DNA of 58,640 nt, taken from Candidatus Omnitrophota bacterium. GTDB taxonomy: Bacteria; Hinthialibacterota; Hinthialibacteria; Hinthialibacterales; JAKPRU01. Positions within the stretch are counted from its first letter, which is position 1. Each line of letters starts with the position of its first letter. The stretch lies in the NCBI GenBank assembly GCA_029570205.1, contig JAKQSI010000018.1:1-58640 (forward strand). Reading direction: 5' to 3'. Positions 5,226-16,952 of this stretch are shown piece by piece. Below the pieces are notes generated by a model. The model ran no database searches, was not told the DNA's origin, and was given only the letters and a program-made list of their open reading frames with translations. A program made the position numbers and the translations under genes.

Positions 5226-7781
5226 TTACCCTCCGAGTAGCGCCAGGAATCCCTGCGAGATGAAGTTGGCCTGGGCCAGAACCGAGGTTCCTGCTTGCAG
5301 CATGATCTGGTTCTTGGTGAACTCGCTGGATTCTTTTGCAATATCGGCATCTTTGAGACGCGACTGAGCCGCTGTCAGGTTTTCCGATGAGACCGAGAGA
5401 TTGGCCACGGTGGATTCGAGGCGGTTGGTTGCCGCGCCCAAAAGTGACCGGGTTCGGTTCACTTGATCCAGCGCCTCATCGATGATCCGGAGACCCTCGT
5501 TGACGCCGGTAACGGTGGTAATATCGATATCCGACACCGTGCGCCCGCTGCCTTCGCCGAATCCGAGGTTCTTTGCGGTGAGATCCCCAATGCTGAACTG
5601 GAAGTTCTGTTCGGAATAAGCGCCGATGTGGAAGTTCATGGACTTATTGACGGTGGAGATCACGATGGTGGTTCCGGGATCCGGTTCGCCGCTGTTGTCC
5701 TTGGTGACATCGAGGATGGCATCAAAATCAACGGTCATATACCGTGCGACCCCTTCGCGGGCTGTGCCGTTATCGATAAACACAACATCCTGGTCACCGT
5801 TCTGGAAAGTGACACCCACACCGCCGTTCAGCCGCCCGATATATTCCTGGGCCTCTACTTCAAGGATGTCTTTGCCGACCGAGAATCCGCTTCCCACACG
5901 GAGGGTGACCTGCGGCGTCGGCACTTTATCCACGGTGGATTCGGGGCCATAGAGGGTAAGGACCGTGCCCGCTTCCGCACGCACCGCCTGCCCGCCGTTT
6001 ACCCGGAATGTTGCCGCTTCGGCAAAGCCTTCCACCATCAGGGCCGCATCGTCCTGAATCGTGACGTGTGCCGCGGTGAGATCAATCAGGAACTTATTCT
6101 GGTTGAATGTCAATGTGAACGAAGTCAGACTGTTGGTGATTCCAATGTCATCGGTCAGTCGGATGGTTCCGCTGCTGCTGAACGTGAACTGGGAGAGTTC
6201 AAAGCGCGTGCGATCTCCATCGTTGACCTCCAGCGTTCCCGCGTACGCGGTATAGGAGCGGGTCCGGTAATTGATCTCTTCCAGCAGACCGGAAATGGAC
6301 TGGAACCGGAAGTCATTGTAGGCCGTGTCGGAACTGGCGGTGAGTGTGGAATCCAGGGTGAATGTGGAGGCAAACGTGCTTCCATCTACTTCCACGCCGG
6401 TCAACGTGATCGTGCTGTTGTTAAACAGAGTGACCCCGCCGGTATACTTGCCTTCCACAAAAGTGCCGTTGAGAACCAGAGCGCTGTTGACGGCGCCCAA
6501 TGATGCAGTCCGGGCAAGGATAACCCCGTTGCGGTCGGTCCAGCTGATCAGGGATTCCGTGACGCGTTGTTGTGCGCCGACCACATCTTCCACCGTGATG
6601 GTGAACTGGCCGGTGTCGAAAGTCGAACCGGTAATCGCGACTACCGCATTTCCGACCTTGCCGGCGCCGGATAGAATGCTGGCTTCGCCGATCTGTCCGC
6701 GTGTAACTCCCTCGGCCTTGGCGATGAATTCGCCGTTCCCGGAAGAGCGCACGGCATAGATATTGATACTGGCTTGCGAAAATGTGGTAGTGCTGTTCCG
6801 GAGGATCAGCCGTCCCGCATTGGCGCCTGTCCCCATGACGGCGGTAATCCGGTAGGCTTGCGGGACATCGGATGTGGACGTAACGCCCCATTGCGCCCTT
6901 TCGGCAATTTCAATCTGCTTATTGATAGCGTCTATCAAATCGCCAAGGTCATAAACAGAGGCGACAGAAATGGCTCCGCCAAACCGCGTTACACCATCTG
7001 AGAGCACTCCCTGGAATCCGATGGTATCCTCGCTGTACAGCGAAACCCCCTGGAAATACGCCGAGGTCAGTGCGGTGGTTACGGTGGCGTTCGCACCGTC
7101 GATGGTTACCGTTGTGGTCCAGTGCCCCAGGGACACCGCGATATCGGTCTGGTCCACAATCCCCATATTGATGGTTTGTTTCTCCAGCTGACCTTCGCCG
7201 GAGACGATCTGCTCGGAGCCTTCTCTTGTTTTCACGATATTGAGAAAGTTCAGACCGTCGGCCAGCGTATTGCCGGTTGGAGACTGATCGATGCAGATTC
7301 CATAAGTTTGCGGCCCGTCCTGTCCCGGTTTGATATTGGACGTGATCTTGAAGTCACCGTTAAGCAAGCGGTTGGTGTTGAACTGAGTGGTTTCGGCGAT
7401 ACGAGTGATCTCGTCGATGCTCTGAAACACCTCGTCCTGCAAAGCCTGGCGGGCCTGGATGTCGTTGACACCTGTATTTCCGGCCTGGATGGCAAGAACA
7501 CGCATCCGGTTCAAGCGAACGGTGATTTCCTCCAAGGCGCCTTCCGCCACATTGATCAGGTTGATCCCATCTTGCGCGTTGTCGATGGCGCGGTTGAGAC
7601 CCATGACCTGTGATTGAAGCCGGGTTGCCACGGTCATGCCGGCGGCGTCATCGCCCGCGCGGTTGATCCGCAAACCGGACGACAATCGCTCGATGGATTT
7701 CTGTAATTTGACCTGGGTGGCGGCCAGATTTCGGTTGGTGTTAATGGCACCGATATTGTTGTTGATTCGTGAAAGACTCAT
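5226..7781 (-). CDS. Large flagellin A (851 aa)
   Basis: Flagellar filament subunit exported by the flagellar type III system. The D0/D1 N-terminus (MSLSRINNNIGAINTNRN, GLRINRAGDDAAG) and C-terminus (NRLESTVANLS, TKNQIMLQAGTSVLAQAN) are typical. Between them lies a surface domain of about 570 residues, two to three times that of common flagellins. The start at 7781 fits the conserved MSL N-terminus and a strong GGAGG; the 30 extra upstream codons of the open frame lie in the leader. It has exactly the same length as flagellin B and is colinear with it (for example the DTGQFTITVEDVVGAQQR and FNNSTITLTG segments), which shows duplication. A leader hairpin precedes it, and it is last of three paralogues in transcription direction. 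Confidence 0.95.
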   Translation of the reverse strand: MSLSRINNNIGAINTNRNLAATQVKLQKSIERLSSGLRINRAGDDAAGMTVATRLQSQVMGLNRAIDNAQDGINLINVAEGALEEITVRLNRMRVLAIQAGNTGVNDIQARQALQDEVFQSIDEITRIAETTQFNTNRLLNGDFKITSNIKPGQDGPQTYGICIDQSPTGNTLADGLNFLNIVKTREGSEQIVSGEGQLEKQTINMGIVDQTDIAVSLGHWTTTVTIDGANATVTTALTSAYFQGVSLYSEDTIGFQGVLSDGVTRFGGAISVASVYDLGDLIDAINKQIEIAERAQWGVTSTSDVPQAYRITAVMGTGANAGRLILRNSTTTFSQASINIYAVRSSGNGEFIAKAEGVTRGQIGEASILSGAGKVGNAVVAITGSTFDTGQFTITVEDVVGAQQRVTESLISWTDRNGVILARTASLGAVNSALVLNGTFVEGKYTGGVTLFNNSTITLTGVEVDGSTFASTFTLDSTLTASSDTAYNDFRFQSISGLLEEINYRTRSYTAYAGTLEVNDGDRTRFELSQFTFSSSGTIRLTDDIGITNSLTSFTLTFNQNKFLIDLTAAHVTIQDDAALMVEGFAEAATFRVNGGQAVRAEAGTVLTLYGPESTVDKVPTPQVTLRVGSGFSVGKDILEVEAQEYIGRLNGGVGVTFQNGDQDVVFIDNGTAREGVARYMTVDFDAILDVTKDNSGEPDPGTTIVISTVNKSMNFHIGAYSEQNFQFSIGDLTAKNLGFGEGSGRTVSDIDITTVTGVNEGLRIIDEALDQVNRTRSLLGAATNRLESTVANLSVSSENLTAAQSRLKDADIAKESSEFTKNQIMLQAGTSVLAQANFISQGFLALLGG

Positions 7782-7788
7782 GGTCGTT

Positions 7789-7825
7789 CCTCCGTGACTC
7801 GTACGGTCGGCGTCTATGCCGACCG
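7789..7825 (-). promoter_or_regulatory. Flagellin A leader hairpin, degenerate CsrA-like site
   Basis: In the transcript an 8-bp stem (7804-7811 with 7818-7825, CGGUCGGC/GCCGACCG) closes a six-base loop, AUAGAC. The Shine-Dalgarno ACGGAGGA begins at 7795. The loop AGA lies 22 nt from the GGA of the SD, the same spacing as in flagellins B and C, but the loop GGA has become AGA. The architecture is conserved while the likely upstream protein-binding site is degraded. Confidence 0.55.
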
Positions 7826-8563
7826 GTGTAAGATGATTCTGCCGGATCGGACCGGCACGGCGGGGATGCACGGGTTTCAGTCCGCCGGAAGATTCTTCTT
7901 CCGCAAAGCAGCCGCCGTTCGGAATTGGAGTCGGGAATCACTTCAGAAGGAACCGAGAGAGTAGTTGTCCGATCCGGGCCACAGTCTGACAGTACGGTCC
8001 CGGGAGTGGGTCCTATTGACCTCCATCGGAATCCGTCCGCCGGACTACGCCCCGGAGCGGACCTGCGGTCCTTTCCTGCCTCATGATTCCCGCCGCGTGG
8101 CGCAATTCCACACCACGCTGAGACCTGAAGGAGATCGGCCTTCAGACCGAAGAAAATTTGATCGGTCCTCCTTTCGATTCCTCCATCCCGACAAATCGCG
8201 CACGGTTCCTCCAAACCGCACGTCGATCCGTCGAAGACGGATGTTCTGCTGTCGATCTATTCGCTTACAGGCTGGAAGCCTGTGCAATCCGTCCAACCCC
8301 TACCGAACCTCCACCTGGCTTGGGGGAGGAACATCTCCCCCAAAGTTTGGGGGAGACACAGAGGGGGTTGTGCGTGTCTTTCACCCCATTTTGCGCATTC
8401 CGAAAGATGGGGCTTGGATCCATTCATCTTGAGCGATACATGAACCAAGGCCTGTCTCTCCGACTCGAATTCACCGGATTCGCCCGTTCGGGGCGGCTTC
8501 AGCGCCCCCGCCGCCGGAGGGGGGAGGCTCCGAACGCGGGGACGTTGATTCTGGTGTGAGCGA
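7826..8563. other. Non-coding spacer between flagellins A and B, with hairpin repeats
   Basis: About 740 bases with no convincing gene. It must hold the flagellin A promoter and the end of flagellin B. I looked for sigma-28 and sigma-54 consensus pairs on the minus strand and found only weak matches, so none is annotated. Around 8318-8385 lies a dispersed repeat with GGGGGAG / CTCCCCC inverted repeats followed by a CACAGAGGGGGTTGTGCG-type end; a related element recurs near 43,165 in reverse orientation. Confidence 0.6.
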
Positions 8564-11119
8564 TTATCCGCCGAGCAAGGCCAGGAAGCCCTGCGCAATG
8601 AAGTTCGCCTGGGCCAGGACAGAGGTTCCGGCCTGCAACATGATCTGGTTTTTGGTGAACTCGCTGGATTCTCTCGCGACATCTACATCTCTCAGGCGTG
8701 ATTCGGATGCGGTGAGGTTCTCCGCTGCGACCGAGAGATTAGAGACGGTGGATTCGAGTCGATTGGTGGCCGCACCCAGGAGCGATCGGGTTCGGTTCAC
8801 CTGGTCCTGCGCCTCGTCGATGATTCGTAGCGCTTCATTGACACCGCTGACCGTTGTGATGTCGATATCGACGACCGTTCGCCCGCTGCCTTCTCCAAAC
8901 CCCAAGTTTGTCGCCCGCAGATCGCCGACGCTGATCCGGAAGTTCTGTTCGGAGAACGCGCCGACATGGAAGTTCATGGACCGGTTCACAGTCGAGATGA
9001 TGATGGTTGTCCCGGCGTCCGGCCCTCCGGTGGAGTTCTTCGTAATGTCGAGAATGGCGTCGAAATCAACAGTCAGATACCGTGCAACACCTTCCCCGGC
9101 AGTACCGTTGTCGATAAACACGACATCCTGGTCCCCGTTTTGGAACGTTATCTTCGGACCGCCGTTCAGGCTTCCGACAAATTCCTGGGCTTCCACCTCC
9201 AGGAGGTCTTTACCGATGGAGAATCCGCTTCCGACACGGATGGTGACCTGTGGCGTGGGGACCTTATCGATTGTCGATTCCGGTCCGTACAGGGTGATAA
9301 CATCCCCGGCTTCGGCTCGTACGGCCTGGCCCCCATTGACGCGGAACGTCGCGGCCTCTGCGAACCCTTCCCTTTTGAGTACCGCATCGTCCTGGATGGT
9401 GGCATGATCCGCGGTAGGATCGAGGAGATGCTTATTCTGGTTGAAAGTCAACGTGAAAGTACTGTGGCTGTCCGTAATCCCAAGGTCATCGATCAGCTGG
9501 AAGGTTCCGGTGTTCGCGTAAGTAAACTGGCTCAGCTCGAACCGCGTTCGGTCACCATTCGCCACGTCGAGGGTGCCGGTGTAGGCCGTATAGGACCGTG
9601 TGCGATAGTTGATTTCTTCAATCAGTCCGGAGATGGACTGGAACCGGAAATCGTTGTAGTCGGTGTCCGAGGAAGCGGTCAGTGTCGTATCAAGTGTGAA
9701 GGTAGCCTGGAAGGATGTCCCATCTATCTCAATGCCGGTCAGAGTGATGGTGCTGTTGTTGAACAGCGTAACTCCGCCCGTGTAGTTCCCTTCTACAAAA
9801 GTCCCGTTCAGCACAGCCGCCGTGCTGATTTTACCTAGAGAGGCCGTTCGGCTCATCATGGATCCGTTTGCATCGACCCAGGCGACAAGCGATTCGGTGG
9901 TACGCTGTTGCGCACCGACAACATCTTCAACGGTAATCGCAAATTGTCCGGTGTCGAATGTGGAACCGGTAATTGCAGTGACGGCGTTGCCGACCTTGCC
10001 CGCACCGGAGAGGACGGAGGCCTCACCAATGACACCTCGCGTGACCCCCTCGGCCTTGCAGGCCAGTTCGCCGGTTCCAGAAGTGCGCGAAACATAAAAA
10101 CTGATGCCGGCCTGGGAGTAAGTCGTCGCGCTGTTGCGAAGCACAATTCGACCTGCGTTCGCTCCTGTACCCATGGCGGCGGTAATTCGGTACGTCTGAG
10201 GCACATCCGAAACGGAGGTCACCCCCCAGTGAGCCTTTTCTGCGGATTCGATCTGGGTGTTGATTCGAGCGATCAGGTTGGCTATATTGATGCTCCCGCC
10301 GACAGATAAGGCGCCACCAAACAGGGTCACCCCGTCCGAAAGAACACCCTGGAATGCAATTGTGTCTCCGCTGTACAGGGATACACCCTGGAAATACCCC
10401 CCATCCAGCACAGTGGCAGTTGTGGCGCTGGTTCCGTCGATGGTTACCGTGGAGGTCCAGCGTCCGAGGGAGACAGCCAGGTCGGTCTGATCCGTGATCC
10501 CTGTACTGATCGTTTGTTTTTCCTGGCTGCCCTCTCCGGAAAGGATCTGCTCATACCCCTGGTTGGTTTTGACAATGTTCAAAAAGCTCAACCCATCTGC
10601 AAGGGTATTTGCAGTGGGAGATTGATCGATTTTAATCCCGTAGTTCTGCAAACCGTCTTGCCCCGGTTTGACCAGGGATTTGATCTGAAAATCGCCGTTG
10701 AGAAGACGGTTGGTATTGAATTGTGTCGTCTCGGCAATCCGGGTGATTTCGTCAATGCTCTGAAATACCTCATCCTGCAACGCCTGTCGGGCCTGGATGT
10801 CGTTCACGCCGGTGTTTCCTGCCTGAACGGCTAAAACCCGCATTCTGTCCAGGCGGACGGTGATCTCTTCCAATGCCCCTTCCGCGACGTTGATCAGATT
10901 CATCCCATCCTGGGCATTCATAATGGCGCGATTGAGACCCATTACCTGGGAGCGGATTCGGGTAGCTACCGTCATTCCGGCGGCATCGTCCCCGGCTCGG
11001 TTGATTCTCAAGCCGGAAGAAAGACGCTCGATAGATTTCTGGAGTTTGTAGCTGGTCGTTTCGAGGTGGCGATTCGCATTAATCGCACCGATGTTGTTGT
11101 TAATACGAGTGAGACTCAT
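8564..11119 (-). CDS. Large flagellin B (851 aa)
   Basis: Flagellin with standard D0/D1 ends (MSLTRINNNIGAINANRH, RSLLGAATNRLEST, LQAGTSVLAQAN) and a surface domain of about 570 residues. It is colinear with flagellin A over its whole length and contains the same segments in the variable domain (DTGQFAITVEDVVGAQQR, GGVTLFNNSTITLTGIE, DGDQ-type NGDQDVVFIDNGTA). The ATG at 11119 follows GGAGG by eight bases and agrees with the paralogues; the longer upstream open frame is leader. The gene probably provides a second filament subunit; equal length and colinearity suggest recent duplication or ongoing gene conversion with A. Confidence 0.95.
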   Translation of the reverse strand: MSLTRINNNIGAINANRHLETTSYKLQKSIERLSSGLRINRAGDDAAGMTVATRIRSQVMGLNRAIMNAQDGMNLINVAEGALEEITVRLDRMRVLAVQAGNTGVNDIQARQALQDEVFQSIDEITRIAETTQFNTNRLLNGDFQIKSLVKPGQDGLQNYGIKIDQSPTANTLADGLSFLNIVKTNQGYEQILSGEGSQEKQTISTGITDQTDLAVSLGRWTSTVTIDGTSATTATVLDGGYFQGVSLYSGDTIAFQGVLSDGVTLFGGALSVGGSINIANLIARINTQIESAEKAHWGVTSVSDVPQTYRITAAMGTGANAGRIVLRNSATTYSQAGISFYVSRTSGTGELACKAEGVTRGVIGEASVLSGAGKVGNAVTAITGSTFDTGQFAITVEDVVGAQQRTTESLVAWVDANGSMMSRTASLGKISTAAVLNGTFVEGNYTGGVTLFNNSTITLTGIEIDGTSFQATFTLDTTLTASSDTDYNDFRFQSISGLIEEINYRTRSYTAYTGTLDVANGDRTRFELSQFTYANTGTFQLIDDLGITDSHSTFTLTFNQNKHLLDPTADHATIQDDAVLKREGFAEAATFRVNGGQAVRAEAGDVITLYGPESTIDKVPTPQVTIRVGSGFSIGKDLLEVEAQEFVGSLNGGPKITFQNGDQDVVFIDNGTAGEGVARYLTVDFDAILDITKNSTGGPDAGTTIIISTVNRSMNFHVGAFSEQNFRISVGDLRATNLGFGEGSGRTVVDIDITTVSGVNEALRIIDEAQDQVNRTRSLLGAATNRLESTVSNLSVAAENLTASESRLRDVDVARESSEFTKNQIMLQAGTSVLAQANFIAQGFLALLGG

Positions 11120-11125
11120 GGTCAT

Positions 11126-11162
11126 TCCTCCGTGAATGTCTGGGTCGGCATCCGTGCCAACC
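11126..11162 (-). promoter_or_regulatory. Flagellin B leader: putative two-site CsrA-type element
   Basis: In the transcript a 7-bp stem (11143-11149 with 11156-11162) closes the hexaloop ACGGAU, which contains the A-N-GGA core preferred by CsrA/RsmA. A second ACGGA forms the Shine-Dalgarno (11133 down to 11129). The two GGA triplets are 22 nt apart, within the range one CsrA dimer can bridge. One pair of the stem is U-G, allowed only on the flagellin-sense strand, which argues for an RNA structure rather than a DNA palindrome. No csrA or fliW gene is in the window. Confidence 0.6.
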
Positions 11163-11475
11163 GGGTACTGGATATGTCTACTCTGCTCCGGATCTTTCCG
11201 GAGCGGATTGCCGGGGATTCGGAATTTCCCTCGGATTCCGCGTATCCAGCGCAATTCCCCGGGGAAACATGTCGAAATCCACGATTCCATCGTGAATCCG
11301 GTGTGTTTTCCGAATCCCTATGGTTCTCGTTGCCCTCTTTCTGTTCGGTCGCGGCGTAATCCGCTCCGAGTTAGAGTCCGGTCGGTGATTCCCGACATTG
11401 GACTGCCTCCTGAGAAAGCCCGACAATCGACAGGCACAGAGGCCTGTCCCACCAGTTTTCCACGGCCTGTCCCAC

Positions 11476-11875
11476 CAGTAGGCCAGGCGTCTCTGCCTGG
11501 CAGTAGGCCAGGCGTCTCTGCCTGGCAGTAGGCCAGGCGTCTCTGCCTGGCAGTAGGCCAGGCGTCCCTGCCTGGCAGTAGGCCAGGCGTCTCTGCCTGG
11601 CAGTAGGCCAGGCGTCTCTGCCTGGCAGTAGGCCAGGCGTCCCTGCCTGGCAGTAGGCCAGGCGTCTCTGCCTGGCAGTGGGCCAGGCGTCTCTGCCTGG
11701 CAGTAGGCCAGGCGTCCCTGCCTGGCAGTAGGCCAGGCGTCTCTGCCTGGCAGTAGGCCAGGCGTCCCTGCCTGGCAGTAGGCCAGGCGTCTCTGCCTGG
11801 CGGTAGGCCAGGCGTCTCTGCCTGGCAGTAGGCCAGGCGTCCCTGCCTGGCAGTAGGCCAGGCGTCCCTGCCTGG
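11476..11875. repeat. Array of 16 x 25-bp tandem hairpin units
   Basis: Sixteen uninterrupted 25-bp units, each containing CCAGGC-GTCTCT-GCCTGG or the same with GTCCCT in the loop. By my reading units 4, 7, 10, 12, 15 and 16 have the C form and the rest the T form; unit 9 and unit 14 each carry one further change. Because 25 is not a multiple of 3 the array stays open in all frames, giving false proteins of up to 249 residues. It lies about 350 bases upstream of flagellin B. Two related CCTGTCCCACCAG copies precede it at about 11,443-11,478. Confidence 0.95.
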
Positions 11876-13352
11876 CAAAAAAGACCGGGACCTTGTCTGA
11901 CCGGGTCCTTCCCATCGTTGAGCACACCCACGATGGTGGATCGCCGGTTATGACAGACTTTGGCGAGACAGTCGCAGACTGATTGCCATGCCGGATTGTG
12001 CCCCCGGAACGGCTGACGCCTTGACCTCCTTATTACAGTTATTTCTTATCCCCAAACGGGGATGGCTATTGCCCAGGGTCGTTCAATCCCGGCAGACGCA
12101 AGTGTCTGCCGTTGTGACACCCCTATTTCCTCCTCGAAGAGCCGAAGGTGGACTCCAGCGGACGCAGTGGACCCCTCTCCCTCTGGAGAGGGCTGGGGTG
12201 ATGGAAACATCCTGCCCATTGCGAGCCACAGTGAATCCACTACCGGTCATTCTGATTCTCTCCATGGACATCCGGCGTCTCGTACATGTCCTTCCACCGG
12301 TTGTCTGCTCCGGATCCAGAGACCGAGTGATGTCCTGGATCCGGGGCATACCCGTGGGTACATCCGTGCCGGGGCTGTTCTGTCTTCATATCGGATGGTT
12401 CTTCATCCGAAGTGTTGTGAACCGGGCCGCATTCGGTTCTGCCGGGTCGGACCGGTAGAGGATTCCTCAGCCAGGAGGCAGGCCACCCGACACCGGGCGG
12501 CGACGATAACCTTCTTCTTGGGTGCGCAGGTCTGGCTGGGCTCATCGTTCCTTTTCCGAATCCGAAACCGTTGAGGCACAGAAGTCCTCGCGACGGCACA
12601 CCGGATTGCCTATGAGACAGTTCTCTCCCAAGCGCTTGTTTGGAATGGACAGCCGTCCATTCCTGTTTCGATCCTTGCCATCAGGCAAACCCGAAGGGAC
12701 GAAAGCCCAGGGCGCGCCATCGGCGAAGGATGCGGTATCGGATCGTTCTCAGAATCGTCATGGATTTCATTGCCGATTCCTCCCGATATGATTTGGTTTT
12801 CGGATGCGCACCGGAATCCGGAGACACCGGCGCCTTTATTCTTTTGCGGGGCGGAACAGAGACCGGCCCGCTTATTTCCATAATTGCCTGGGGGATCCGT
12901 CAGGTTCGGGCAGACTTATCCGAGCAGTCGGGTGGCCTTGTATGGATTCGCCCTGACTGACGGTCCCGCAGCAGGCACTCTTGTCTTGATTATCGACGAA
13001 CCTCGGGCCATGTCTTTCCGGTTTGGTGAGGAGCGTTTTTCAACCTTTCAAGGGTTCCTACACCATCCGTTGCGCTTCTGGTGCTCCAACTTTGTTCGGG
13101 AAGATTGACCTTCCGGAACCTGGTTGGAAACAGAGACAAAGGTCCTACTATCCGGGACAGGGAAATCCCCCCTGTCCTATGTCCGGTCCCGGCAATTTCC
13201 TCCGGATTTGACCGGCGTGGGCGGATTGCGCCGCCTCGGTATATTCGGTGGAATTGCCGTTTCGTGCTTCATATTGCAAGTCCTTTTCTTCGGACTGTGT
13301 GTTCTACTCTGCCCCTGCTCCCAGAATGTTTCGTTGAGAGGAAGCTCCAGAT
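11876..13352. other. Long non-coding stretch between the hairpin array and the gene behind flagellin C
   Basis: About 1.5 kb in which I find no gene: open frames are short, overlap in several frames, lack ribosome binding sites and resemble no family. A CCCTCTCC-CTCTGGAGAGGG inverted repeat lies near 12,173-12,191. The stretch may be decayed sequence from lost flagellar genes, but no remnant is recognisable by eye. Confidence 0.55.
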
Positions 13353-13862
13353 TTAATTCAGTGATGGTCGGCGGGGATTTCCGCCACCCAGTAAGTGTTC
13401 CTTTTCTTGTTCGCGTTTTTGCTCATCCGCCGGCAGTCCTCGCAACTCTTTAATATCGGGGTAGGGGATCAGCCATCGTCGGGTCCGGCCGATTCGTCGT
13501 TTCTTGCCGGCGGATCGGATTTCGACGTTCTGTCGCTTGGGGACCAGGGTTTGGATTTCGTCCCCCTCGCTTTCGATTTCCTTGTGAATCAGTTCCAGGA
13601 GTACATTCTGGTTGTGAATATGCTTTTGAGAGGTTTCCGGTTGGTTTCCGGGTTCCAGGAAGCGCAGCAAGTCATCCTGAATGATTTCCCACAAAAGAGA
13701 CGTGAGTTCTTTGCCCTGGTGGATGTTTGCCAGTTCATTCGGGATCCCGCTTAGATGTCTGAGGTTGTAAATCCATTCCTCGTTAAGAGGTCCGACAGGC
13801 AGGGCCGGATGCGAATCTATGTGTGTGTGAGGTATTTGTCGGTTGTACGCAGAAGCGGACAT
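13353..13862 (-). CDS. Uncharacterised 169-aa protein downstream of flagellin C
   Basis: I do not recognise this protein. It starts MSASAYNRQIPHTHIDSHPA after a GGGATGG-type ribosome binding site. It has a soluble, helix-rich middle (ELTSLLWEIIQDDLLRFL) and a basic region around 120-133 (GKKRRIGRTRRW), with no signal peptide or membrane segment. It lies 136 bases behind flagellin C on the same strand, so it may serve filament assembly (chaperone, FlaG-like or regulator). That is inference from position only: its sequence does not look like FlaG, FliS or FliD. Confidence 0.6.
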   Translation of the reverse strand: MSASAYNRQIPHTHIDSHPALPVGPLNEEWIYNLRHLSGIPNELANIHQGKELTSLLWEIIQDDLLRFLEPGNQPETSQKHIHNQNVLLELIHKEIESEGDEIQTLVPKRQNVEIRSAGKKRRIGRTRRWLIPYPDIKELRGLPADEQKREQEKEHLLGGGNPRRPSLN

Positions 13863-13951
13863 TGTTCCATCCCTTTCGCAAAATCAGTTCCTCACTCGTG
13901 GCCCTAAGCCGAGTCAATTCAATCAGTTATACAGTTGCAGTGAAAGTTGGA

Positions 13952-13985
13952 CCGGGCGGGTCCGGCGGGGATCGGCCCCGCCCGG
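13952..13985 (-). terminator. GC-rich stem-loop after flagellin C
   Basis: A 9-bp inverted repeat, CCGGGCGGG (13952-13960) with CCCGCCCGG (13977-13985), lies 13 bases past the flagellin C stop. It has no U tract, so it may only attenuate, or protect a 3' end, with the downstream 169-aa gene read at a lower level. Confidence 0.5.
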
Positions 13986-13998
13986 CAGGTGTGCGGAA

Positions 13999-16572
13999 TC
14001 AGCCTCCAAGCAGGCTCAGCAGTGTCTGAGGCAGGAAGTTGGCCTGCGAGAGAACGCTTGTGCCAGCTTGATAGAGAATCTGATGAAGGGTATAGCTGGT
14101 TGTCTCGGATGCGATATCCACATCGCTCAGACGCGATTCGGAGGATGTCAAGTTTTCCGAGCTGACAGACAGATTACCGATTGTGGATTCGAGCCGGTTC
14201 ACGAACGCGCCCAGGGTTGCCCTGGCGCGGCTGATCTGATCCAGCGCCTCATCGACGATCTCGAGGGCTTCGTTGACACCGGACACGGTGCTCACGTTGA
14301 TCTGATCGACCGTTCGACCACTGCCGCGTCCGAATCCCAGGTTGTCGGCACGCAGGTCCGGCATGTTGACCTGGAGGTCCTGTCCCGCAAAGGCCCCCAC
14401 CTGGAAGTTGAGGTTCCTGCTGATCGTTGAAATCAGGATCGCAAGGCCCGTGTTCGGGGAGCCGGTCGTGGGAGGACCGGTCACATCGAGCATGATGTCG
14501 AAGTCCAGAAGGAGGGTCTCGGCAACACCTTCGGAAACGCCGCTGACAAAGAAAACATCGGAGTCGCCGTTCTGGAAGGTGACCAGGGGACCGCTGTTCA
14601 GGCTGCCGACGAATTCCTTGGCCTCGACCTCCAGAGTATCCGTCCCACTGTTGAAGATGGAGGCACTCATGATGCCGTCGCGATCTCCGCCACCGACGCG
14701 CATAGCCAACCGTTGCGGTGTTTCGCCGAACACGGTCGGGGTTGCGGCTGCCAGGACCACGAAATCACCTACAGTGACCCGCTGACGGGGGCCACCGGCA
14801 GTCTGAATCGTGGCCTGTTCGGGACTTCCGGCGATGATCAGCTCGGCACGGTCGTTGATTGTGCTCTGCAGCTCCGCACCTGTTGTATCATTGATGCGGA
14901 TCAGGAAGTTTGACTCGGAGAAGCCGGCAATATCGTCGATCAATTGGAATGTACCCGCACCGGTATAGGTGAACCGAGCGTCTCGGAATCCCCACTGATC
15001 GCCTGCGGCCTTTGTACCAAACGCACTGGACTGATTGCGCCAGTTCATCTCGCGGACAATGCCGGAGATCGTGAAGACATTCCCGTCAATCAGGTTGTCC
15101 GCCGCGGGAACCGCCGTATAGGTCAGTGTGCTGGAGAAACTTGTCCCGTCAGCATTAGTTCCCTCGATGGTGATGGTATCCCCACCGGTGAGGGTGAAGT
15201 ACTGCCGCCAGACACTGTTGTACCAGACACCGTTGAGACCCACCGAACCCAGAGACGCATCGCGGGCCAGGATGGCGCCCGTTCGATCCGTCATAGTCAA
15301 GAGGCTCTCGAGCTCCCGCCGGGCAGGTGGAACTACATCTGTCACCGTGATGGCGAAGTTGCCGGTATCGAATGTGGAACCGGTGATAGAGTTGACCGTA
15401 TTCCCGATCTGTCCGCCGGCATTTGCTCCGTTGACCAGGTCGCGGATAACACCAAACTGCTGTGCGAACACGGTCCCTCCGTCAACAACGGTGAAGGAGA
15501 TGTTGAATGCGGAAGGAGCCATGACATCGTTCGTTCCGTCGTTGCTTGCAAAGTAGAAGCGCCCACCGGCGTTTGCGCCGGTTGCGCCGCTGAGTCCGCC
15601 CGCCGCACCGTCGGTCATGCTGACACGAGTCTGGACGAAGGATGAGGGGATCGTACCGCCGCCGAACAGGGCTTTCTCTGCGGAGTCGATGGCCGCCTGA
15701 ATGGCCGCTCGCATGTTTGTCCAGGTGGCGCCAACTCCGATGGAGAACGATCCGGCAAAGGGGGTTACTCCATCCGAAAGGACACCTTGGAACGAAATGC
15801 GATCCGTGGCGGCCAGGGTATATCCGGGGATGATTGTGCCATCCGCCAGGGTATACCGTCCCAGCTGGCTGCCGATGATATTGTCGGTAAGCGCAGCGAG
15901 CGCGCCGGTGGTGTCGCGGATCTGCAGGCTGCTGACCGCGATATCGGTCGCATCCCGGACACCGGTGGCGAAAATCTGCTGATCGCCACGCGTTTCGGCG
16001 GGAAGCAGGGTCTGACGACCGGCCTGAGTCCGGATAATGTTCAGAATGGAGGTTCCGGACCGCAGGTTGGAGGCGTTCGGATCGTCGGAGATATGAACTC
16101 CGATGGGATCCTGGCCTGCGCGAACTCCCGAACTGTTGGCATTATCTCCGTTGAACAGGACTCGTGTGCCGAATTGCGATGTCTCCGCGATGCGGTTGAC
16201 CTCATCGATCTGCTGGAACACTTCATCCTGGATGGACTGGATGGCCCGGTAATCGTTGGAACCGGTATTGCCGGCAGCGATGGCCAATTCGCGGATCCGT
16301 TGAAGTCCGAGAACCATCTGATCCAATGCGGCTTCCGCCGTGTTGGACATACTGATTCCGTTTTGGGCGTTGAGAATGGCTTGGTTGACACCCCGGATTT
16401 GGACCCGCAGTCGTTCGCGGATGGTCAATCCGGCGGCATCATCCCCGGCGCGGTTGATTCTCAGGCCGCTGGACAAACGCTCGATATTCTTTTGGAGCTT
16501 TGTGCTGACCGTGTTGAGATTGCGGGATGCGGTTACCGCGCCGATGTTGTTGTTGATACGTGTGAGGCTCAT
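13999..16572 (-). CDS. Large flagellin C (857 aa)
   Basis: Third flagellin, with D0/D1 ends MSLTRINNNIGAVTASRN and SVLSQANFLPQTLLSLLGG and a variable domain of about 570 residues. It is clearly more divergent from A and B than they are from each other, but shares landmarks in the variable domain: SITGSTFDTGNFAITVTDVV, TDRTGAILARDASLG and FVGSLNSGPLVTFQNGDSD. The start at 16572 follows GGGAGG and matches its paralogues. It is first in the transcriptional order C, 169-aa gene, B, A, with its own leader hairpin. It may be the ancestral or a regionally used filament subunit. Confidence 0.95.
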   Translation of the reverse strand: MSLTRINNNIGAVTASRNLNTVSTKLQKNIERLSSGLRINRAGDDAAGLTIRERLRVQIRGVNQAILNAQNGISMSNTAEAALDQMVLGLQRIRELAIAAGNTGSNDYRAIQSIQDEVFQQIDEVNRIAETSQFGTRVLFNGDNANSSGVRAGQDPIGVHISDDPNASNLRSGTSILNIIRTQAGRQTLLPAETRGDQQIFATGVRDATDIAVSSLQIRDTTGALAALTDNIIGSQLGRYTLADGTIIPGYTLAATDRISFQGVLSDGVTPFAGSFSIGVGATWTNMRAAIQAAIDSAEKALFGGGTIPSSFVQTRVSMTDGAAGGLSGATGANAGGRFYFASNDGTNDVMAPSAFNISFTVVDGGTVFAQQFGVIRDLVNGANAGGQIGNTVNSITGSTFDTGNFAITVTDVVPPARRELESLLTMTDRTGAILARDASLGSVGLNGVWYNSVWRQYFTLTGGDTITIEGTNADGTSFSSTLTYTAVPAADNLIDGNVFTISGIVREMNWRNQSSAFGTKAAGDQWGFRDARFTYTGAGTFQLIDDIAGFSESNFLIRINDTTGAELQSTINDRAELIIAGSPEQATIQTAGGPRQRVTVGDFVVLAAATPTVFGETPQRLAMRVGGGDRDGIMSASIFNSGTDTLEVEAKEFVGSLNSGPLVTFQNGDSDVFFVSGVSEGVAETLLLDFDIMLDVTGPPTTGSPNTGLAILISTISRNLNFQVGAFAGQDLQVNMPDLRADNLGFGRGSGRTVDQINVSTVSGVNEALEIVDEALDQISRARATLGAFVNRLESTIGNLSVSSENLTSSESRLSDVDIASETTSYTLHQILYQAGTSVLSQANFLPQTLLSLLGG

Positions 16573-16580
16573 TGGTCGTA

Positions 16581-16616
16581 TCCTCCCTGATACTTTGAGC
16601 CGACATCCGTGTCGGC
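16581..16616 (-). promoter_or_regulatory. Flagellin C leader: putative two-site CsrA-type element
   Basis: In the transcript a 6-bp stem (16599-16604 with 16611-16616, GCCGAC/GUCGGC) closes the hexaloop ACGGAU. The Shine-Dalgarno region reads AGGGAGGA. The loop GGA (16608-16606) and the SD-proximal GGA (16586-16584) are 22 nt apart, as in flagellin B. Both fit the A-N-GGA core. Binding would block ribosome entry. Confidence 0.6.
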
Positions 16617-16952
16617 CTCACCTAATGCTTTTTTCTCCATTGTGGAGTGTCGGTTTCGGGTGCAATTCAGTCCATCGATCCGGTCTGTGATCTTCTCAGT
16701 GGCCGGATCCTGACAGGTTGCTTACCGGCAGCCTTTCGGCAAAATCACGGAGCTATTGGGCACTTGCTTACTTCAGATTATCTCGGCAACCGACAGCCAG
16801 GATGGGTGCTTTCAATGTGTTCTGCTGAGCCTGGTTGCCATGGGTGGGTGCTGTAGTAGGCTCGCCAATAGGTTTCGGCTGAGAAATTTCGGACTTGAGT
16901 CTTTTGTGAAATTTTTTCTGAGATCGGGGGAAGAGACTCGCCTGCAACTCGC
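16617..16952. other. Spacer upstream of flagellin C
   Basis: About 335 bases between flagellin C and the end of the MATE gene, both on the minus strand. It must contain the flagellin C promoter; no clear sigma-28, sigma-54 or sigma-70 pair was found. I see no gene. Confidence 0.5.

Follow-up and report, generated by a model that had tools for sequence, protein, structure and literature searches.

The leaders of flagellin genes B and C, and of most flagellin genes in the phylum, are very probably RNA operators with two CsrA sites, at which a CsrA dimer would repress translation and FliW would act as antagonist, with flagellin A largely independent of CsrA. All three genes lie on the minus strand of the window, the whole 58,640-nt stretch of DNA analysed. 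Each candidate site is predicted to be a hairpin with an A-N-GGA-N hexaloop, one just upstream of the Shine-Dalgarno sequence (SD) and the other formed by the SD itself. One CsrA dimer would hold the loops of both hairpins, barring the 30S ribosome from the leader. Unbound FliW would strip CsrA from the RNA, and flagellin accumulating before export would bind FliW and restore repression, a checkpoint for flagellin homeostasis. That flagellin traps FliW and that FliW removes CsrA is known (PMC6070490). Flagellin A, whose leader has no GGA in its upstream loop and little left of its SD hairpin, would be translated largely independently of CsrA.

Paired hexaloop hairpins in the window

A preliminary description of this DNA had placed a hexaloop hairpin upstream of the SD in all three flagellin genes, with the RNA loop ACGGAU in B and C, AUAGAC in A, and a U-G pair in the stem of B. 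Reading back the minus strand located each of these features (Table 1). The same description gave the distance between two GGAs as 22 nt in every gene. This is the distance from loop GGA to SD GGA in B and C; in A the position 22 nt from the SD GGA is occupied by AGA. Overlooked at that stage was a second hairpin in B and C, with an ANGGAG hexaloop that contains the SD. As the SD is also held in a hexaloop hairpin, these leaders are twin-hexaloop elements. B and C, unlike A, each have two or more ANGGA sites about 18-22 nt apart, of which one lies in a hairpin loop and another on the SD. The weak sigma-28-like site of C, if used, would put both hairpins of that gene within the transcript.

Table 1. 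Flagellin genes of the window and elements of their leaders (sequences 5' to 3' on the strand given, hexaloops in brackets)
Feature	Sequence	Positions	Strand	Remarks
Flagellin A, 851 aa		5226..7781	-	Flagellin_N and Flagellin_C; ATG at 7781
A leader hairpin	CGGTCGGC[ATAGAC]GCCGACCG	7804..7825	-	8 bp; stem retained, no GGA in loop
A SD region	TC[ACGGAG]GA	7788..7797	-	SD hairpin down to 2 bp
Flagellin B, 851 aa		8564..11119	-	full flagellin, N and C domains; ATG at 11119
B hairpin 1, candidate CsrA site	GGTTGGC[ACGGAT]GCCGACC	11143..11162	-	7 bp including one U-G pair
B hairpin 2, candidate CsrA site containing SD	CATTC[ACGGAG]GAATG	11123..11138	-	ANGGAG hexaloop
Flagellin C, 857 aa		13999..16572	-	full flagellin, N and C domains; ATG at 16572
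C hairpin 1, candidate CsrA site	GCCGAC[ACGGAT]GTCGGC	16599..16616	-	6 bp plus outer G-C and G-U
C hairpin 2, candidate CsrA site containing SD	GTATC[AGGGAG]GATAC	16578..16593	-	ANGGAG hexaloop
Weak sigma-28-like site of C	TCAAGTCCGAAATTTCTCAGCCGAAAC	16872..16898	-	3 mismatches

Two other features lie between B and C. Upstream of B, at positions 11473-11877, a palindromic unit of roughly 26 bases (GTAGGCCAGGCGTCTCTGCCTGGCA) is repeated head to tail about sixteen times. A 169-aa open frame without a Pfam match is found at 13353-13862 on the minus strand.

The leader arrangement is not a chance one in this genome. We surveyed 464 kb of it on both strands and found 347 sites resembling GGAGG followed by a start codon. 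Four of them are preceded, at 20-29 nt, by a hairpin with 6 or more base pairs and a GGA-containing loop: those of flagellins B and C, that of another flagellin, the fourth, encoded on contig C46, and one site with an unrelated loop, which is a chance match. The leader of the C46 flagellin, GTTCGGC[AGGGAT]GCCGAAC, has a stem unlike those of B and C and a distance of 21 nt. We also built a covariance model on 16 leaders and ran it over 14 whole genomes. The best 31 matches were all flagellin leaders, as were 36 of the 39 at E<=0.025; 20 of the flagellin matches are outside the training set, some of them near-copies of training rows. Most of the non-flagellin matches (in G009, G011, G012 and others) are without an SD hairpin or a proper downstream gene and look like chance. 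Rfam has no family for the leaders, the sole match at gathering thresholds being a tRNA.

Conservation and covariation of the leaders in the phylum

To the leaders of this genome we added those of relatives whose assemblies are deposited under Candidatus Omnitrophota and Candidatus Hinthialibacteria OLB16. The set comprises 43 leaders of flagellin genes in 14 genomes of the phylum, near-copies within the genus included. A hairpin with GGA in the loop is found before the SD in 36 of the 43, with 31 distinct stems. Among the remaining leaders, the stem persists without the GGA in the three A orthologues, and no such hairpin is present in four class-level leaders (L088, L089, L090, and L092). Loop and SD are 21-25 nt apart across most of the order, and 28-29 nt apart in the majority of class-level relatives. 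The distance reaches 42 nt in L021 and L023, with an additional hairpin between. In several C-type leaders of family f2, another hairpin with GGA lies 51-54 nt before the SD GGA.

Both stems show compensatory change. In an ungapped alignment of 16 leaders the covariation score was 0.374, compared with 0.152 +/- 0.025 in 500 shuffles, none of which reached it, and at most 0.119 in slid controls. Two-sided changes were seen at seven of the eight pairs in hairpin 1 and three of the five in the SD hairpin. The latter follows the pattern stem-UC[ANGGAG]GA-stem, and its stem has a mean length of 3.86 bp; when 5' and 3' flanks were dealt between leaders, the mean fell to 2.68 +/- 0.16 bp and the observed value was not attained in any of 2000 rounds. 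In free RNA the SD hairpin forms with a probability of about 0.8-0.9 in C and under 0.1 in B. Its poor formation in B counts against the CsrA-site reading; there the hairpin would have to be induced by CsrA.

It is quite unlikely that the upstream hairpin is a generic element of the 5' leader, such as an mRNA stabiliser or a ribosome stand-by structure, with no role for CsrA and an incidental GGA. The 8-bp stem that A keeps without GGA in three species is what such an element would predict, but the species of the A clade are too close to reveal selection on that stem. Across the aligned set the loop A and the GGA are invariant while the N position and the stem letters vary, the SD too is folded into an ANGGAG hexaloop, and the hairpin arrangement is specific to flagellins, all of which argue against a generic element.

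Other leader hairpins were noted in the survey. A flagellin-like gene outside the window with an open frame of 812 aa (L008, at G000:C21:106425-106474, and L051) has ACGGAT within a larger loop, GCGGG[CACGGATGATTTT]CCCGC, and a CACGGAGGA SD; it is a possible weaker CsrA target. In the family f2 leaders L019, L031, L032, L036, and L060, more hairpins are found at about -45 to -160 from the ATG, with variable stems and a conserved loop, GCUUCGCACCC or AUCGCACCC, lacking GGA. They occur in places twice per leader, e.g. CGTGGTCCGCTTCGCACCCGAGACCACG, and CTGAATTGCACCC at about -100 of window gene C is akin to them. One flagellin subclade (L027, L033, L038, and L044) has a hairpin at about -115 from the ATG with a conserved loop CAUGCGGUC(G) and varying stems.

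CsrA, FliW and the precedents

The genome of the window encodes a single csrA directly behind a single fliW; the CsrA, encoded on contig C52, has 100 aa. The preliminary description had put forward CsrA/FliW control as a candidate and advised a genome search for both genes and an alignment of orthologous leaders. With csrA and fliW both found, the loop GGA kept and the stems covarying, the candidate is supported at the level of sequence. Among the 14 genomes of the phylum, 13 encode csrA, with fliW directly upstream in 12. The csrA copy of G004 is cut by the contig start. In G005, the genome without csrA and fliW, the contig breaks off 2 kb beyond the conserved neighbour on the upstream side, so the absence is a matter of assembly. 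Contig ends thus account for the missing genes in both genomes, and a true lack of fliW in G004 or of both genes in G005 was rejected.

The gene content looked for, a csrA with the RNA-binding residues and a fliW together with a CsrA that has the C-terminal extension, V/I51, and N55, is present. The CsrA of this genome retains I51, N55, R44, and the C-terminal extension. Each of the 12 CsrAs that are sufficiently complete has I51, N55, and R44, and 11 have L4, G009 having F4. V/I51 and N55 are the residues of CsrA that contact FliW (PMC7829508). The best PDB match of both this CsrA, extension included, and FliW is the CsrA-FliW complex 5dmb.

Judged by analogy, the mechanism is one already known, with an architecture almost point by point that of Campylobacter jejuni flaA and the logic of Bacillus subtilis hag. 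The C. jejuni flaA leader has two ANGGA-loop stem-loops, the second over the ribosome site, with a 21-nt GGA spacing (PMC4894983). Mutating either stem-loop raises the Kd 4-10 fold and FlaA 2-3 fold, and with AAA or UGA in place of the loop GGA, CsrA bound less strongly and FlaA was derepressed (PMC4894983). The leaders described here resemble it in their two adjacent ANGGA hexaloops, the second over the ribosome site, in the similar spacing, in having FliW in place of CsrB-type sRNAs, and in compensatory changes among relatives. They differ in belonging to another phylum, with several flagellin genes per genome whose leaders differ, in the 24-nt and 42-nt variants, in the third GGA hairpin of some leaders, and in the loss of both sites in A. 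The preliminary description had likened the layout to the two-site control of hag. Two sites, one over the SD, are indeed shared with hag, along with a FliW antagonist and flagellin homeostasis, but in the present leaders the SD site, too, takes the form of a hexaloop hairpin, and the genes under control would be paralogues of one family; the likeness is in layout, not in the exact hag structure, and flaA with its two adjacent hexaloops is the closer precedent. In the E. coli glgC leader and the Pseudomonas RsmE targets a high-affinity GGA hairpin with an ANGGAN hexaloop likewise tethers CsrA, which bridges to the SD, although the antagonists in those systems are sRNAs (CsrB/C, RsmX/Y/Z) and not FliW.

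The core of the SELEX ligands of CsrA is ACARGGAUGU (consensus quoted in PMC7652899), and gene C, which reads ACACGGAUGU, is one letter off. Position 2 of the loop is C in both B and C, a departure from the R of the core that counts against CsrA binding. The hairpin stems, of 6-9 mostly G+C pairs, also count against it, since most SELEX ligands had shorter ones with no more than four contiguous pairs (PMC7652899).

CsrA might instead bind the leaders and activate or stabilise, as for E. coli flhDC or ymdA, an outcome we consider very unlikely. CsrA is able to activate: in ymdA it opens an inhibitory hairpin, activating translation (PMC7652899). The SD hairpin alone could likewise inhibit translation and CsrA could open it. 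However, site 2 directly overlaps the SD loop, fliW is present, and the two closest precedents, hag and flaA, are repressive, which is more consistent with repression by CsrA. Extremely unlikely is an inverted repeat acting as DNA, either as a palindromic operator or within a promoter of the sigma-54 or sigma-28 type, and we rejected both forms: the promoter resemblances are short and limited to single genes (TGGCACG of B to a -24 element, GCCGACA of C to a sigma-28 -10), no DNA consensus is retained across leaders because the stems change by compensation, hairpin 1 has 12 G-U pairs to 4 A-C mismatches, a bias expected of sense RNA (weak on its own, and absent in hairpin 2), the spacing between the hairpin sites and the SD is nearly fixed, and f2 C-type leaders have clear sigma-28 sites about 230 nt upstream, perfect in the orthologues L045 and L046 (at about -230).

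Flagellin A and possible divided control of paralogues

The preliminary description predicted that A would be controlled differently from B and C. In agreement, the A loop is without GGA in all three species of the genus, and no A-N-GGA-N hexaloop with a stem of at least 3 bp is found at either site or within 400 nt; flagellins B, C, and that of C46 have both sites. In a flagellin tree made by a quick method, A is nested among genes with GGA-bearing leaders, so the state without GGA is a loss. Having neither site, A probably escapes CsrA.

A similar division is seen in the class-level family f5. Three genomes have a flagellin pair (L083/L089, L084/L088, and L085/L090, the genes being adjacent in G011 and G013) in which the GGA hairpin is confined to the leader of one member although the coding parts group within species, suggesting that split control of paralogues may be recurrent. 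In these pairs the leaders without the GGA hairpin have a strong SD hairpin only (5-8 bp). L090 has a sigma-28-like site directly upstream of the SD. It is conceivable, if on balance doubtful, that the flagellin paralogues of the phylum divide into CsrA-checkpointed and CsrA-blind copies through leader mutations alone, with CsrA thus setting the composition of the filament and not merely the amount of flagellin.

The CsrA-FliW flagellin switch with twin hexaloops, for which there is proof in Bacillus and Campylobacter, would extend to a candidate phylum known here from assembled contigs alone, with comparative evidence for both hairpins. What is new is its well-supported occurrence in a poorly studied candidate phylum, and the apparent paralogue-specific loss of sites is the interesting part. 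Since every genome encodes several flagellins, whose sites may be intact, altered, or lost, these leaders are natural mutants with which to ask if post-transcriptional control selects the flagellin of the filament.
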